Below, in pieces: positions 55,978 to 61,503 of a stretch of 64,000 bases of DNA. The stretch is taken from contig NZ_JAABOO010000002.1 of assembly GCF_010671605.1 (NCBI RefSeq), positions 186,001-250,000 on the forward strand, given 5' to 3'. A program made the translations under genes and the position numbers. Numbering within the stretch: position 1 is the first letter of the stretch; the number at the start of each line of letters is the position of its first letter. The DNA comes from Leptobacterium flavescens. GTDB lineage: Bacteria > Bacteroidota > Bacteroidia > Flavobacteriales > Flavobacteriaceae. The notes beneath the pieces were generated by a model. That model saw only the letters and a list, made by a program, of their open reading frames with translations, was not told the DNA's origin and ran no database searches.

Positions 55978-56277
55978 ATGAGCAAGGTTAATATTCCAAA
56001 TAATTATCCGAAAGGATGTTCTGATGATTCAATAAAAAAAGTTGTGGAAGAATGCCAAACTAAAATCGCAACAGTGAATTATGCATACAATGTTGTTTTA
56101 GGAACTTCTTATTATGCAACTATAGCTGAACAAGGTAACGCTGAGCTAAATCGCAGACTTAGTGAAAGATTGATTACAAATTTGGAAAAATCTTCTAAAC
56201 GACAAAGAGAATTAACTTGGACAATTATAATTATTGGTGGATTAAATTTAGTATTAGCATTTTTGAAATTGTTTTAA
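55978..56277 (+). CDS. Small tail-anchored membrane protein in defence-like island
   Basis: A 99-residue protein: soluble, Cys-containing N-terminal part (NNYPKGCSDDSIKKVVEECQ) and one C-terminal TM helix (TWTIIIIGGLNLVLAFLKLF, residues 80-99). No family recognised. Its stop TAA is followed directly by the ATG of the HEPN-like gene (56278), so the two are translated as a unit. A membrane partner plus HEPN-type effector is a typical layout for abortive-infection pairs. This is inference from architecture. Codon use is AT-rich, unlike the genes to the left. Confidence 0.65.
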   Translation: MSKVNIPNNYPKGCSDDSIKKVVEECQTKIATVNYAYNVVLGTSYYATIAEQGNAELNRRLSERLITNLEKSSKRQRELTWTIIIIGGLNLVLAFLKLF

Positions 56278-57204
56278 ATGAAATCCAATAAAAAGAAAAT
56301 ACTAGATATAAAAGATAGGGAAGAAGAGTTTTCTAAAATAAAAGAAAGAATTCAACTTCTAAATAAAGGATTTAGAGCAATATATGCCGATTATTCACAT
56401 CATATTGAAGTGAGGAATACACAGTTAAATGAATTGACTAATAATATAAATTATAGATTTTTCGCATCGCTATTTCATTTGGAGTTGATTATAAATCACC
56501 ATTACTTAGTTGAAAAAAGTATAGAAGAGATCTATTCTAAGGATCCTGAATATATATTACGACGTTATCAGCCTGTTCACCCATTATATGATCATTACGA
56601 AAAACAAGTTACTTCTCTATTTGATAGTTTAATTTTTCATTTGGGTTCAGCTTTTGATTATCTTAGTAAGGTTGTATATTTTATAGTAAACAATAAGAAC
56701 GAATCAATGTCTCACTGGACGAAATTGAACAAAATTTCAATTCCTTCAAATAAGAGTAATTTTTCTAAGAATCCAATTGCTAAAACTATAGTGGAAGAAA
56801 ACAATTGCTTTGTAGGTAAACTTTATGACTATAGATCTAAAGTGATTCATAAAAGAAGTGATAGAAATACTTATTTGATTTCTACAGTTTTAAAATCGGG
56901 GAAGACTAGTGCTAAATTTATTTCATCTGGAGCTTTAACGAACATTTTTTCGGGTTTAAGATCAAAATCAAAAACTCATGATTTAACAGTTCAATATTCT
57001 TCTACATGGTTGATCAATAATACAATAGATTCTATTTCAAGAATTCTTATTGCTTTAAAAAGCGATGTAGAGTCTAAATCTACTTTTCCAAATCATGTAA
57101 AAGATAATGATATTATTTTTATTCAAATCGAACCAGGTACTAACAAAGGGGTTCCTGCGTCAACCCGTTTGTGGAATGACTTTATAACCCATATATTCAA
57201 ATGA
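56278..57204 (+). CDS. HEPN-like protein, candidate effector
   Basis: A 308-residue helical protein, no signal peptide. The middle helices include LIFHLGSAFDYLSKVVYFIV (about 118-137) and, 50 residues later, LYDYRSKVIHKRSD with Arg186-x4-His191. This is the R-x4-6-H arrangement of HEPN-domain RNases, preceded by the expected helical packing. HEPN assignment rests on this motif and helical content, so it is tentative. The gene starts immediately after the small membrane protein and ends 109 bp before the type IIG restriction enzyme. The A+T richness marks it as part of the island. Confidence 0.6.
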   Translation: MKSNKKKILDIKDREEEFSKIKERIQLLNKGFRAIYADYSHHIEVRNTQLNELTNNINYRFFASLFHLELIINHHYLVEKSIEEIYSKDPEYILRRYQPVHPLYDHYEKQVTSLFDSLIFHLGSAFDYLSKVVYFIVNNKNESMSHWTKLNKISIPSNKSNFSKNPIAKTIVEENNCFVGKLYDYRSKVIHKRSDRNTYLISTVLKSGKTSAKFISSGALTNIFSGLRSKSKTHDLTVQYSSTWLINNTIDSISRILIALKSDVESKSTFPNHVKDNDIIFIQIEPGTNKGVPASTRLWNDFITHIFK

Positions 57205-57312
57205 TTGAAATTTACTTATATCAAGTATTTATATGTCTTTGCTTTATGGGATTTAAAATTTATAGTACAATTTATTCATAATTAATATCTTTATATTTTT
57301 TACAAATTATAA

Positions 57313-60300
57313 ATGCCATTATACCAGAACTCCGTACTTAAAACCTATTTAGCACAACAAGATAAAGAGCTTGTTTCTAAAGCATATAAAAAGTTTGCAA
57401 AATACTTTCATAATCCTGTTAGACAGCAAAATATAAAGAAAATAAAAGAAGAAGGTTTCCAACAAAAATTTTTAATGGAACTCTTTGTAACTGTCTTTGG
57501 CTATACGATAAATCCAGATCCAAAATTTAATCTTACCACAGAATTCAAAAATGAAAAGGGTGCAAAAAAGGCGGATGGCGCTATCTTAAAAGAGGATAAA
57601 GCTTTAGGTGTTATTGAATTAAAAAGCACGAAGTTAAAGGATTTAGAAAAGATACGACAGCAGGCCTTTGACTACAAAGCCAATCAAACAGAATGTATAT
57701 ATGTTATTACTTCCAATTTTGAGAAACTCCGTTTTTACATCAATAATGCAGTAGAATTTGAAGAATTTGATTTGTTTACACTTACAGAAGAACGTTTTCA
57801 ACTTATGTATCTCTGTTTAGCAAAAAGCAATATCTTAAGTAATGTACCCCTTAACATTAAACAAGCATCTATACAGGAAGAAAAGAAAATCACTGATGAT
57901 TTTTACAAAGCTTATTCTATATTTAAACGTGAGTTATTTCGTGATTTGGTCAAGCGGAATATGAAAAATGAAGTTTTTCGTGCTGAATTAAATAATGAAG
58001 ATACAGACCGGGGAACAAAAAATATTAAAAGTACATTATTTAAAAAATCACAAAAATTAATAGATCGTTTCTTATTTGTTTTCTTTGCGGAAGATAGTAC
58101 ATTATTAACCAGTAATTCTGTAAAAAGGATACTAGATAAGTGGAAAGCGGATAATGACTTTGGAGATGAAAAACCACTATATGATTTATTCAAGCAGTAT
58201 TTTCATTTTCTTGATACAGGAAGGAAAGGAACAACATCTAGAGCCGAAATCTTTGCATATAATGGAGGATTGTTTAAGCCTGACCCTATTTTAGATAGTC
58301 TGTTAATAGATAACGATTTGTTGTATAAACATACAGATACTTTACAAACTTATAATTTTGAAAGTCAGGTAGATGTAAATATTCTTGGACATATTTTTGA
58401 AAATTCATTGAATGAAATTGAAAGTGTAAATGCTGAGATAGAAGGGGCTAGTTTTGATAAACAGAAAACTAAACGAAAAAAAGATGGTGTTTACTACACA
58501 CCTAAGTACATCACCAAATATATTGTAGATAATACAGTTGGTAAACTTTGTAATGAAAAGAAAATTGAGCTTAACATAATAACAGATGAATTTCGCCCTA
58601 ATCGCCAAACTGAAACAAAAAGAAGACTTTTAAGTGCTTTGGAAGCGTATAGGGAATGGTTATTACAATTAACCATCCTTGACCCGGCTTGTGGTTCTGG
58701 TGCTTTTCTAAATCAAACCCTCGATTTTTTAATAAAGGAACATCAGTACTTAGATGAATTACAAACTATATTATTGGGAGGAGGATTTGTGTTTCCGAAT
58801 ATTGAAAACACTATTTTAGAAAACAATATCTATGGTGTCGATTTAAATGAAGAATCTGTAGAAATCGCAAAGCTTTCCTTATGGCTTCGTACCGCTCAAC
58901 CGAGAAGAAAACTTAATAATTTAAGTGAAAATATAAAATGCGGGAATTCATTAGTTAGTGTGAAAAATATTGCAGGATCAAAGGCTTTTGATTGGAATTT
59001 AGGTTTTCCAGATATTATTCAAAAAGGTGGTTTTGATGTTATAATTGGCAACCCCCCATATGGTGCAAAGTTAGATAAGGAAACTCAAAATTATCTTAAC
59101 AAAAATTATATAAAAGGAGGTTCTGAAACAGTAATTTCTTTTATAAAACTTTCTCATGACCTTTTAATTGATGGAGGGAAATTTGGTTTTATAATACCAA
59201 AAGCATTTTCTTTTTCATCAAATTATAAGTATATAAGAGAATTATTATTAAATGAAATTGATGAAATAGTTGACTGTAAAAAAGTATGGAAAGAAGTAAA
59301 GTTAGAGCAAGTTATTGTTGGGTTCACTAAAAATAATACATCCAAAACATATAAGACACTTTTGCGTAAAGATCAAGAAATAATTGAGATTGGGCAGATT
59401 TTGAAACAAGATTATGAAAAGTTTGGGTTTTACTTAAATGGAATTTCAAGTGTGGAATTAAACGTAGCAAATATTATTTTAAAAAATAGTAGAACTCTAA
59501 ATAAAATTGCAAAAAATCAAAGAGGAGGGGCATTACAAAAACTTGTCAATGATAGCGGAAATGTAAAAGCATTAGGCGGAGTAAATATTCAAAGAGAAGG
59601 TATAATTGGCTATAAAGGTTTAATAAATAAAGAGCTAATAGATTTAGATTCTAAAAATTTCATAAACTCTAATTCCTTATTGGCGCAAAATATTGTATCA
59701 CATATTAGTAATCCAGTAGAGCATATTAAAATTATTGCATGTATACCTTTAGAGAATGATTATGCTATTTTAGATACAATAAACCAAATAACTATTAATA
59801 ATGGGACTTATAGCAATAAGTTTATTTGTGCATTATTGAATTCAAAAGTTATAAACTGGTATTGTTATCGTTTTATTTATGGTAAGGCGATAAGAACAAT
59901 GCATTTCGATAATGCAATAACTGATAGAATTCCAATACCATTTATTACAAAGAAAGATTTAAAATTTGTAGAAGATAAAATGGATAAATTATCTGATACT
60001 AATGAAGAAATAATTAAAAATAGAAGTTCTTTTCATGATTATGTATGTGCAATGTATACAAATGAAAATAGCTCAAATAAAATGATTAATTGGGATAAAT
60101 ATGATTTAAAAAAAATAAATACTGAAATCAATTTAATTCGAGTGAATAATAATTTGTCAAAAATGAATTCAGATGAGGAATATAAACTTTTTGAAATTCA
60201 TAGTAAATCTAAAAATCTAATTACAAAATTAATTAATAATAAAAACGAAATTGTGAATTCAATTGATTATAAAATGTTTGAATTGTTTAATCTTAATGAA

Positions 60301-60336
60301 GATTCAAAAAACTTAATTGTTTGTCAAATGCCTTAA
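57313..60336 (+). CDS. Type IIG restriction-modification enzyme (nuclease-methylase-specificity fusion)
   Basis: A 1007-residue single-chain enzyme. An N-terminal PD-(D/E)XK nuclease domain has Asp88 and Glu102-x-Lys104 (GVIELKSTKL). A helical linker (about 180-400) leads to an N6-adenine methylase with motif I DPACGSGAFLNQ (457 on) and motif IV NPPY (580-583). The C-terminal about 300 residues (about 700-1007) form the target-recognition part. It is typical of Eco57I-like type IIG enzymes that cut and methylate through one polypeptide. Homologues of PglX are longer and lack the N-terminal nuclease. The recognition sequence cannot be read. The DNA is AT-rich. Confidence 0.9.
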   Translation: MPLYQNSVLKTYLAQQDKELVSKAYKKFAKYFHNPVRQQNIKKIKEEGFQQKFLMELFVTVFGYTINPDPKFNLTTEFKNEKGAKKADGAILKEDKALGVIELKSTKLKDLEKIRQQAFDYKANQTECIYVITSNFEKLRFYINNAVEFEEFDLFTLTEERFQLMYLCLAKSNILSNVPLNIKQASIQEEKKITDDFYKAYSIFKRELFRDLVKRNMKNEVFRAELNNEDTDRGTKNIKSTLFKKSQKLIDRFLFVFFAEDSTLLTSNSVKRILDKWKADNDFGDEKPLYDLFKQYFHFLDTGRKGTTSRAEIFAYNGGLFKPDPILDSLLIDNDLLYKHTDTLQTYNFESQVDVNILGHIFENSLNEIESVNAEIEGASFDKQKTKRKKDGVYYTPKYITKYIVDNTVGKLCNEKKIELNIITDEFRPNRQTETKRRLLSALEAYREWLLQLTILDPACGSGAFLNQTLDFLIKEHQYLDELQTILLGGGFVFPNIENTILENNIYGVDLNEESVEIAKLSLWLRTAQPRRKLNNLSENIKCGNSLVSVKNIAGSKAFDWNLGFPDIIQKGGFDVIIGNPPYGAKLDKETQNYLNKNYIKGGSETVISFIKLSHDLLIDGGKFGFIIPKAFSFSSNYKYIRELLLNEIDEIVDCKKVWKEVKLEQVIVGFTKNNTSKTYKTLLRKDQEIIEIGQILKQDYEKFGFYLNGISSVELNVANIILKNSRTLNKIAKNQRGGALQKLVNDSGNVKALGGVNIQREGIIGYKGLINKELIDLDSKNFINSNSLLAQNIVSHISNPVEHIKIIACIPLENDYAILDTINQITINNGTYSNKFICALLNSKVINWYCYRFIYGKAIRTMHFDNAITDRIPIPFITKKDLKFVEDKMDKLSDTNEEIIKNRSSFHDYVCAMYTNENSSNKMINWDKYDLKKINTEINLIRVNNNLSKMNSDEEYKLFEIHSKSKNLITKLINNKNEIVNSIDYKMFELFNLNEDSKNLIVCQMP

Positions 60337-60347
60337 TCTAATGAGAG

Positions 60348-60896
60348 ATGAATAAAAATTATTGGAAAAATGCATATAAAGATTTCTGGGAAGTTGCAGC
60401 TTCCAAGGAAAAAAAGATAAAAAATATTATTGAAAGTGAAACCGGTTTTGAAGTAATTGAAATTGGATTAGGTGCTGGAAGTACTGCGTTTATTGAAGGC
60501 AATGCCAAAGACAATAAACTAGAAAAAGGAGATGCTGATTTATATGTTAAGGAAAAAGAATGTTACATTGAAGTAACTGGCCCAAATATAAAAATGGATT
60601 TTGATAAGCCACTATGGGTTAGGCCGGATAAATTAAGAAATGCTTATAAAAAACATAAAAGAGGAGAAGGAAAATTACATGTAATTGTGCATGTATTAAT
60701 TCAAAAAAATAACGAAACAGTAATTAGAGTTATCATATTAGATGATTTATTTTTTGATCATATTATCAATAAAAAATCATTCGAATTGGTTAATCCTATT
60801 ATAAGAGGTAAAAAAGAAGAATATTATGAGTTACCACCTGAACATGAAACGATTATATCGCTCAAAGATTTTATCAAAAAATTAAAGGAATTATAA
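60348..60896 (+). CDS. PD-(D/E)XK-like protein with EVT motif, accessory to the IIG enzyme
   Basis: A 182-residue soluble protein 11 bp after the type IIG gene. A strand-rich core reads GLGAGSTAFIEG (about 44-55), then LEKGDADLYVKEKECYIEVTGPN. Asp64 and Glu75 are 11 residues apart, as in PD-(D/E)XK nucleases, but the Lys position (ExK) is Thr (E75-V-T77). A nearby Lys (WVRPDKLRNAYKKHK) could substitute. It may be a nuclease or a DNA-sensing partner. Because it is directly coupled to the IIG enzyme, it is likely part of the same system. The family is not known to me. Confidence 0.6.
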   Translation: MNKNYWKNAYKDFWEVAASKEKKIKNIIESETGFEVIEIGLGAGSTAFIEGNAKDNKLEKGDADLYVKEKECYIEVTGPNIKMDFDKPLWVRPDKLRNAYKKHKRGEGKLHVIVHVLIQKNNETVIRVIILDDLFFDHIINKKSFELVNPIIRGKKEEYYELPPEHETIISLKDFIKKLKEL

Positions 60897-60945
60897 GCAT
60901 TACACATTATCGAGTCTTAATATAGTGGATTGTATATAATTAACC

Positions 60946-61140
60946 TTATTTCTTCCTTCTAGAATAACTAACCTTCTTTTTAAAATCTATAATCTCGTCT
61001 TTAAGTTTTTTATTGGCATTTTCTATAAGCTCATTTTGGAGCTTCATAATACGTAGAAGATCGTGCATTGCATTTAGGTTATCCAGTTGTATAAGTACGA
61101 TTTCCTCAAGTTCTGCTTTGGTATATCTTAATTTACTCAT
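60946..61140 (-). CDS. Small coiled-coil protein divergent from XRE regulator
   Basis: A 64-residue protein (KLRYTKAELEEIVLIQLDNL, then NAMHDLLRIMKLQNELIENA and a basic C-terminus). Heptad-like Leu/Ile spacing suggests a coiled coil. It is read away from the XRE gene, sharing the 61141-61281 region with it. No toxin or antitoxin family is recognised. The size and arrangement are compatible with a small regulator or antitoxin, but the sequence does not show either. Confidence 0.5.
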   Translation of the reverse strand: MSKLRYTKAELEEIVLIQLDNLNAMHDLLRIMKLQNELIENANKKLKDEIIDFKKKVSYSRRKK

Positions 61141-61281
61141 AATTATATAATATTTTAATACAAGTGTATCGAATTTCTATACTAAAGTATCAAAAATATA
61201 CCTAATGATGTATAAAAAGTTTTAAAATTTGAAACTAATGTATCAACTATCTATATTTATGTGTATAAAGATGATACGACT
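61141..61281. promoter_or_regulatory. Divergent promoter region with repeated GTATC sites
   Basis: GTATC-type words recur at 61166, 61187, 61210 (GTATA) and 61240, each in a similar TGTATCRAA context, with dyads ATAC-TAAA-GTAT (61179-61190) and ATAC-N8-GTAT (61198-61213). This looks like a cluster of operators for the small XRE protein, controlling both divergent genes. Confidence 0.5.
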
Positions 61282-61503
61282 ATGACCAAACTAGGTCTCT
61301 ATTTAGCAAAGAAATCTATCAATAAAGCAGAAGTTTCCAGAAAAACTGGAATTAGCAAATCTCGTATGAGTCAATTAAGTTCTAATGAGTCTACCAAGCT
61401 TCGTGTAGATGAGTTGTATCTTATTGCTTTAGCCATTGATGTTGATCCTTGTGAAATTTTCAAAGAAATCTGTGCAGGTTTAACCTTAAAAGAGGATAGC
61501 TAA
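61282..61503 (+). CDS. Small XRE-family HTH regulator
   Basis: The ATG at 61282 gives a 73-residue protein; a GTG 21 bp upstream is also in frame. HTH: SINKAEVSRKTGISKSRMSQL (residues about 12-32), then a C-terminal dimer helix DELYLIALAIDVDPCEIFKEI. This is the size and form of C-proteins that control restriction-modification genes and of small phage-like repressors. It is close to the type IIG gene but transcribed separately, with repeated GTATC sites upstream. Whether it controls the RM gene is unknown. Confidence 0.85.
   Translation: MTKLGLYLAKKSINKAEVSRKTGISKSRMSQLSSNESTKLRVDELYLIALAIDVDPCEIFKEICAGLTLKEDS

Follow-up and report, generated by a model that had tools for sequence, protein, structure and literature searches.

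The 64,000-nucleotide stretch of Leptobacterium flavescens DNA analysed in this study (contig NZ_JAABOO010000002.1, positions 186,001 to 250,000; hereafter the window) carries a Type IIG restriction enzyme-methyltransferase gene (IIG) followed by a small gene of 182 amino acids (aa). The small protein belongs to a family of 11 distinct members whose genes lie beside both Type IIG and Type III restriction genes and also occur in phage contigs, and it is predicted to adopt a PD-(D/E)XK nuclease fold. In the usual description, one gene makes a complete Type IIG restriction system and two genes make a complete Type III system. The reading tentatively preferred here, with a probability a little short of even, is that these proteins form a mobile family of PD-(D/E)XK nucleases of approximately 180 aa, repeatedly recruited as an extra gene of Type IIG and Type III operons, in which they may act as auxiliary cutters that use the lysine K95. 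The window features, based on open reading frame (ORF) calls, are as follows.

57313..60336, + strand: Type IIG restriction enzyme-methyltransferase, 1007 aa (ORF call, PADLOC, Pfam)
60337..60347, + strand: intergenic gap of 11 bp between the IIG stop and the small-gene ATG (ORF calls)
60348..60896, + strand: small gene, 182 aa, predicted PD-(D/E)XK (resolvase-like) fold, no convincing library family
55978..61503, no strand assigned: AT-rich stretch with a 99-aa ORF, a 308-aa ORF, the IIG/small-gene pair and a helix-turn-helix (HTH) ORF

The placement of a 182-aa gene 11 bp after the IIG gene, pointed out in an earlier sequence-only reading of the window, is confirmed by these coordinates. At E 1 the small protein had no match in Pfam, NCBIfam or PADLOC; it gave a chance match only in PHROGs (E 0.47) and returned nothing from the PDB by sequence at E 10; across the family the best PDB sequence match (0.072) was taken as chance, and no PADLOC model matched any of ten members at E 1. 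Two Pfam matches among ten members were not believed, namely PF03472 in one member (E 0.009, the best overall) and the KH-domain family PF22675 in four of the ten (best E 0.017, 15.4 bits against a cut-off of 30). Single-sequence searches with the window protein through 397 genomes of its bacterial family and 395 of its phylum (overlapping samples) recovered its own copy only, plus one chance match each. The relatives came from other searches. Three phage contigs (L050, L051 and L052) were found by a viral scan with a motif fragment (64-66% identity over 58 aa), and searching from a phage-contig member led to a Roseomonas mucosa plasmid protein (L056) at 28% identity. When genomes were scanned with a three-row alignment, 56 stretches matched, and four of these encode relatives, in metagenome-assembled genomes of Segetibacter (L064), Eubacterium (L065), Butyrivibrio (L066) and Lachnospiraceae (L067). 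Profile searches added one relative in genome G813 (2 of 250 genomes matched, one being the query's own) and one in G1106 (locus L075; 2 of 147 matched, again including the query's own); in 395 genomes of the phylum, a profile search found the window's own genome only.

The ten relatives are 26-51% identical to the window protein. L050, nearly identical to L051 and L052, was left out of the alignments and is counted among the 11 members; matches at E 0.04-0.35 were left out of the count. Two borderline matches (E 0.006-0.008), to a methionine-synthase-like ORF (L002) and a 6-phosphogluconolactonase-like ORF (L003), were rejected on reading the ORFs. No relative was found in the plasmid and phage collections with the window protein or in the phage collection with other members, and the remaining viral scans gave none beyond the same three contigs. 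The scans applied short patterns to samples of genomes, within which the family is rare. Among the papers listed by literature searches, with subscription papers and preprints outside them, none describes such a gene family as judged by title or abstract start.

Conservation within the family centres on a set of charged residues. In the window protein D64 is followed, after 10 intervening residues, by E75-V76-T77, as the sequence-only reading had described, and K7, E21, D64, E75, T77, R92, D94 and K95 are among the positions invariant in all 11 members. Of these, E21, D64, E75 and K95 resemble residues of an active site. The canonical D...(D/E)-x-K arrangement, with lysine two residues after glutamate, is absent from every member, T77 occupying the lysine position, and EVT (once EIT) in place of ExK is a fixed feature of the family. 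The ratio of nonsynonymous to synonymous substitution rates (dN/dS) among close members is approximately 0.04-0.11 in the six of nine pairs for which it could be computed, a rough value given that dS exceeded 1 in three of the six and failed in the other three pairs. As judged from these sequence comparisons, the small protein is under purifying selection, and the invariance of D64, E75 and T77 down to 26% identity, combined with low dN/dS, indicates that the feature is more than chance. In a model of the window protein D64 and E75 are located at the strands spanning residues 65-67 and 72-77, whereas K95 lies near the start of a helix at 93-105. By model and analogy, the putative active site may be written PD-E-x-T...K, with K95 as the candidate replacement for the usual lysine; as the invariant K95 might stand in for it, the EVT motif does not by itself imply an inactive enzyme. 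There is precedent for such rearrangements in the literature (papers are cited by PMC number and drawn on in extract). In COG4636, a migrated-lysine 'PD-EXX-K' layout has been proposed, with the catalytic lysine in an adjacent helix (PMC551604), and the PD-(D/E)XK superfamily includes variants in which lysine has migrated or been replaced by asparagine, glutamine or an acidic residue (PMC1189080).

The fold was predicted with AlphaFold from two alignments, one with the window protein first (7 rows; predicted local distance difference test (pLDDT) 80.8, predicted template modelling score (pTM) 0.78) and one with the L066 protein first (8 rows; pLDDT 77.8, pTM 0.75), and the order of elements is largely the same in both. 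Among Foldseek's candidates, VIA-align placed archaeal Hjc/Hje resolvases at the top for both models: 1gef_E for the window-first model (Z 11.4, root-mean-square deviation 2.5, 112 residues aligned) and 2eo0_A for the L066-first model (Z 10.7, deviation 4.0, 123 aligned). These were followed by SPARDA nuclease subunits (Z 10.3 and 8.9 for the two models), RecU-type proteins (9.2 and 7.3) and I-Ssp6803I (8.3 and 7.3), with Tt1808 (1wdj_A) also in the list at Z 6.3. The small protein is accordingly described here as having a predicted PD-(D/E)XK fold, with an alpha-beta-beta-beta-alpha-beta core and with PD-(D/E)XK nucleases in its top rows, and the models support the nuclease-like fold proposed from the sequence. 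In the BFVD, 21 predicted viral proteins matched at E <=0.001, mostly unnamed or uncharacterised and including two annotated as Holliday junction resolvases; models that match the fold include A0A3G8G899 (E 6.9e-8, template modelling score 0.69) and Gp685 of Bacillus phage G. Sequence identity across the 21 rows is 8-16%.

All seven bacterial genome-assembly loci contain a DNA methyltransferase gene within 280 bp of the small gene on the same strand: two are IIG genes, four are Type III mod genes followed by res, and one is a truncated mod. In six of the seven, ORF calls place the small gene in overlap with its neighbour or at a spacing of <=11 bp. The window IIG looks from its sequence like a complete Type IIG enzyme, a single chain that combines a nuclease, an N6-adenine methyltransferase and a recognition domain. 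It matches the PADLOC model REase_MTase_IIG (E 6.8e-222) and the Pfam family Eco57I (E 1.7e-34), with N6_Mtase and two MmeI domains also above cut-off and TaqI_C and MmeI_N below their own cut-offs; besides the Eco57I/N6 methyltransferase core, it has an N-terminal region containing D88-x13-E102-L-K104 (positions counted by eye in the translated sequence) and a TaqI_C-like recognition part at residues about 691-1007. At the second IIG locus (L075, in G1106), the final 56 bp of a gene for a 1214-aa IIG (L075:5364-9008) lie within the small gene, which is itself cut off by the end of the contig. This IIG is built differently (DUF7149, DUF7814, Eco57I, TaqI_C), and a BLAST comparison of its N-terminal part with window IIG residues 1-390 gave no match at E 1e-3. 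The recognition domains of the two enzymes are 54% identical over 182 aa; such similar domains on N-termini that do not align suggest that recognition domains pass from one IIG backbone to another.

In the Type III loci (L065, L066, L067 and L074), the small gene stands directly before mod, then res. Pfam identifies PF01555, then ResIII (PF04851) and RE_endonuc (PF19778), in L065 and L066; L067 and L074 were assigned without a Pfam run, by alignment of their Mods with those of L065 and L066 and by the length and translation start of Res. The small gene is not always first in these loci, since L074 has a helicase-like ORF and a 219-aa ORF just upstream, with a same-strand ORF ending 4 bp before the small gene. 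In L064, an intact-looking small gene lies 279 bp after a C-terminally truncated Mod (L064:7345-8712); a minimal system of methyltransferase plus small protein was considered for this locus and rejected, as this Mod lacks the C-terminal end that the other Mods have. Nor does the small gene look like a normal part of Type III systems: by tblastn, the L066 Mod matched 107 plasmid records at E 1e-60 and, at a threshold of E 0.1, the L066 small protein matched the Roseomonas plasmid only, a comparison that rests on 15 of the 107 Mod records. Separately, a YhcG/DUF1016 PDDEXK nuclease gene was observed between mod and res in L066 (L066:5237-6364).

In the phage contigs, the small gene lies by an SmpB gene (identified by Pfam in L051 and by eye in L050 and L052), with a thymidylate-synthase-like ORF nearby (by eye). 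On the large-phage contig L051, SmpB (L051:5377-5799; PF01668, E 1.1e-43) directly follows the small-gene relative, with similar ORFs seen by eye in L050 and L052; among the papers listed by a literature search, none is devoted to phage SmpB by its title. On the Roseomonas plasmid, the small gene lies among hypothetical genes. The relative encoded there (L056:8992-9741) is 249 aa long, with a proline/alanine-rich C-terminal extension of approximately 60-70 aa (by eye).

These distributions bear directly on the proposal of the sequence-only reading that the small protein is a new accessory specific to Type IIG enzymes, against which occurrence of the gene independently of IIG genes had been named beforehand as the telling observation. 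Such occurrence was found, with Type III genes (L065, L066, L067 and L074), a truncated Mod (L064), phages (L050-L052) and a plasmid (L056) as the settings, and the idea of a new Type IIG accessory is too narrow. Given copies beside two kinds of restriction genes and in large phages, the small protein looks like a transferable helper of anti-phage defence and not part of one enzyme type. A stronger form of this view, in which a single relocated-lysine nuclease family serves Type IIG and Type III systems as a transferable 'third component' that is also phage-borne, a shared module and not one enzyme's subunit, is put forward with considerable doubt; under it, the phage copies could degrade host DNA or blunt host restriction.

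As to enzymatic activity and substrate, the part played by K95 and any joint action with the neighbouring enzyme, the preferred reading of a recruited auxiliary nuclease would run as follows. In the putative active site of the family, threonine takes the place of the usual lysine (E75-V-T77), and the catalytic lysine would probably be K95, where the following helix begins. The gene would have been recruited more than once into restriction-modification operons, both Type IIG and Type III. The large enzyme would recognise unmodified foreign DNA and make the first cut, and the small protein may then cut further, either the second strand or the ends, branches and nicks left behind, with the neighbouring methyltransferase protecting host DNA from the first attack. 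The different partner enzymes, the swapped neighbours of L064 and L075 and the equally close phage copies favour an auxiliary nuclease over a tight heterodimer.

It is important to note that several results weigh against this reading. A search with the window IIG matched 22 genomes besides its own, and the wider DNA was examined for 20 of these, which with two viral loci gives 22 loci; in none of the 22 was the small protein found at E 1 in the DNA examined, which in one of them (L031) stops at the contig end directly after the IIG ORF. The coupling suggested earlier recurs in a single further genome, where the IIG is of different build, and in none of the loci with relatives of the window IIG, and the idea that the small gene always accompanies a window-type IIG was rejected. 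Two short loci outside the 22 (G754 and G763) also gave no match to the small protein, and when the 76 loci were scanned together with a hidden Markov model, no additional copy of the small gene came up, only one chance match at 0.48. In the phage contigs, which may be fragments, and on the plasmid, no match above cut-off was found to PF01555 or PF07669, the two methyltransferase families searched for, and none of the four phage and plasmid records was seen to adjoin a methyltransferase gene; the Roseomonas plasmid did give a sub-threshold PF01555 match (12.4 bits, where 26.7 are required), approximately 13 kb from the small gene along the circular molecule, and it was not taken to be a methyltransferase. 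There are only seven genome loci, four of which are closely related to one another (71-83% identity). Identity to the window copy is 49% for the other IIG-linked protein and 51% for the phage proteins, and L064 and L075, which are 57% identical, differ in their neighbours; such swapping of partners speaks against an intimate subunit. Lysine is missing from its standard position throughout the family. As to the fold, Foldseek found no PDB match with E <0.001 (the best was DpnI at 0.012), and models without a clear Foldseek match usually peak at Z 7 to 8, so that values of 11.4 and 10.7 are only moderately higher. The two models drew on almost identical sets of 7-8 sequences, and confidence is low for the conserved GLGAG region (residues 41-60, pLDDT <50). 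Comparison of the family with a three-sequence Hjc alignment by hhalign gave a probability of 0.3 of 100, a weak test given the shallow profiles (Neff 2.4 and 1.7), and the link to resolvases is therefore by predicted fold only.

Close spacing was likewise rejected as proof of coupling. Among the 21 IIG relatives whose downstream DNA was read, nine have a same-strand ORF of >=90 aa that starts within 30 bp of the IIG stop, and short spacing alone thus proves little. It looks as if the region just 3' of these IIG genes serves as a docking site at which partner genes come and go. By eye, the close downstream ORFs in L028-L049 are mostly of different kinds (e.g., 467, 353/357, 284, 274 and 254 aa). 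Recognition domains were compared across 23 IIGs: that of the window occurs at 42-55% identity in three (L029, L046 and L075) and more weakly, at 17-24%, in seven more. L029 (42% over 301 aa) and L046 (55% over 183 aa) lack the small gene within the DNA examined, and a strict link between the small gene and one recognition domain was not upheld; with two IIG pairs, the sharing of recognition domains is to be read only as a hint.

There are several potential alternatives to an auxiliary nuclease. The one that survives best, although rather unlikely, is that the small protein has a catalytically silent PD-(D/E)XK fold and serves as a DNA-binding sensor, brake or regulator that holds restriction until the host is methylated or marks DNA, the phage copies being captured brakes. 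Threonine in place of lysine in all 11 members would be expected of such a protein, its position directly before mod in the Type III loci is one that an early-acting regulator might occupy, and the phage contigs lack above-cut-off matches to the two methyltransferase families; in addition, inactive restriction endonuclease (REase)-fold domains have been proposed as sensors in BREX-related systems (PMC12839542). However, E21, D64, E75 and K95 are all invariant, which is more than a non-catalytic fold seems to need, and the small gene follows the enzyme gene in both IIG loci and is not first in L074.

It is less probable, and on balance unlikely, that the small gene is a passenger, a phage-type nuclease of DNA metabolism (resolvase or host-DNA degrader) that resides in defence islands and is functionally unlinked to the restriction genes. 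The phage copies do lie in a phage gene array by SmpB and thymidylate-synthase-like genes, large phages are reported to encode uncharacterised REase-fold proteins reminiscent of archaeal resolvases (PMC7824862), and other genes are found within 30 bp of IIG relatives in the nine loci above. The AT-rich stretch of the window also looks acquired: G+C is 28.0% in the IIG, 27.3% in the small gene and 33.7% in the HTH ORF compared to 38.7% in the window, and the low values of the IIG and small gene indicate that the pair is probably acquired DNA. A passenger is, however, difficult to reconcile with seven of seven genome loci that adjoin a methyltransferase gene, across two restriction types and overlapping or tightly spaced in six. 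A free-standing small endonuclease of Type II-like character, whose own site is also that of the neighbouring, protecting methyltransferase, is improbable: the neighbours vary around a constant small protein, and the IIGs of both small-gene pairs share a recognition domain on unalignable N-terminal parts, which could reflect shared specificity, but the L029 and L046 IIGs have that domain without the small gene, the Mods of the Type III loci come from a different methyltransferase family (PF01555), the phage contigs and plasmid show neither methyltransferase family above cut-off, and 182 aa would leave little room for a separate recognition domain.

Compared to known systems, the closest working analogues of the window pair are the Type IIT/IIS small subunits (BspD6I/BstNBI, BtsI A and BsrDI), in which a small protein also accompanies a large recognising enzyme. 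The 186-aa small subunit of BspD6I/BstNBI cuts the second strand, and the large subunit recognises the site and cuts one strand (PMC4081073); the small subunits of BsrDI and BtsI act likewise (for BtsI, PMC2909958). In the extracts of these papers, however, the partners are not described as IIG or Type III enzymes, whereas the present family also occurs with mod-res and in phage contigs; the likeness is drawn from description, and PDB sequence searches gave no significant match. Hjc/Hje (and RecU) offer the closest predicted fold among the PDB chains compared, with the Z scores given above. In Hjc, E12, D42 and E55-x-K57 are invariant in three sequences, and the order of acidic residues is similar to that of the small protein (alignment by eye); unlike Hjc/Hje, the small protein has T77 in place of lysine, lacks a profile-level match and is found beside restriction genes. 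The REase-fold family of jumbo phages, described as reminiscent of archaeal resolvases (PMC7824862), may include the phage members found here, a likeness by fold and description only.

COG4636 (Tt1808) resembles the small protein in lacking lysine after E-x, and its lysine in the adjacent helix may correspond to K95, but the distance from glutamate to lysine is 16 residues in all3650 of COG4636 compared to 20-22 in the small-protein family, and the extract of PMC551604 describes no restriction-operon context. HVO_A0006 of Haloferax volcanii is a free-standing PD-(D/E)XK protein discussed in connection with Type IIG genes; it differs in being a fragment homologous to the IIG N-terminus, with a canonical D60-x14-E75-A-K77 (PMC4389544). 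The SPARDA nuclease (DREN) subunits share a similar fold (Z 10.3 and 8.9) and belong to a defence system, but their partner is a short Argonaute and not a methyltransferase (PMC12205087).

If a conserved extra gene of nuclease fold is indeed common to Type IIG systems, Type III systems and large phages, restriction would have an auxiliary effector (or a brake) that lies outside current annotation. The family would be a further case of a 'relocated lysine' active site and would provide a testable link between phage nucleases and restriction operons.

Upstream of the IIG in the window, the AT-rich ORFs of 99 aa and 308 aa (55978-57204) gave no real-looking match in Pfam, NCBIfam or PADLOC; by eye, the 99-aa ORF has a C-terminal hydrophobic stretch.

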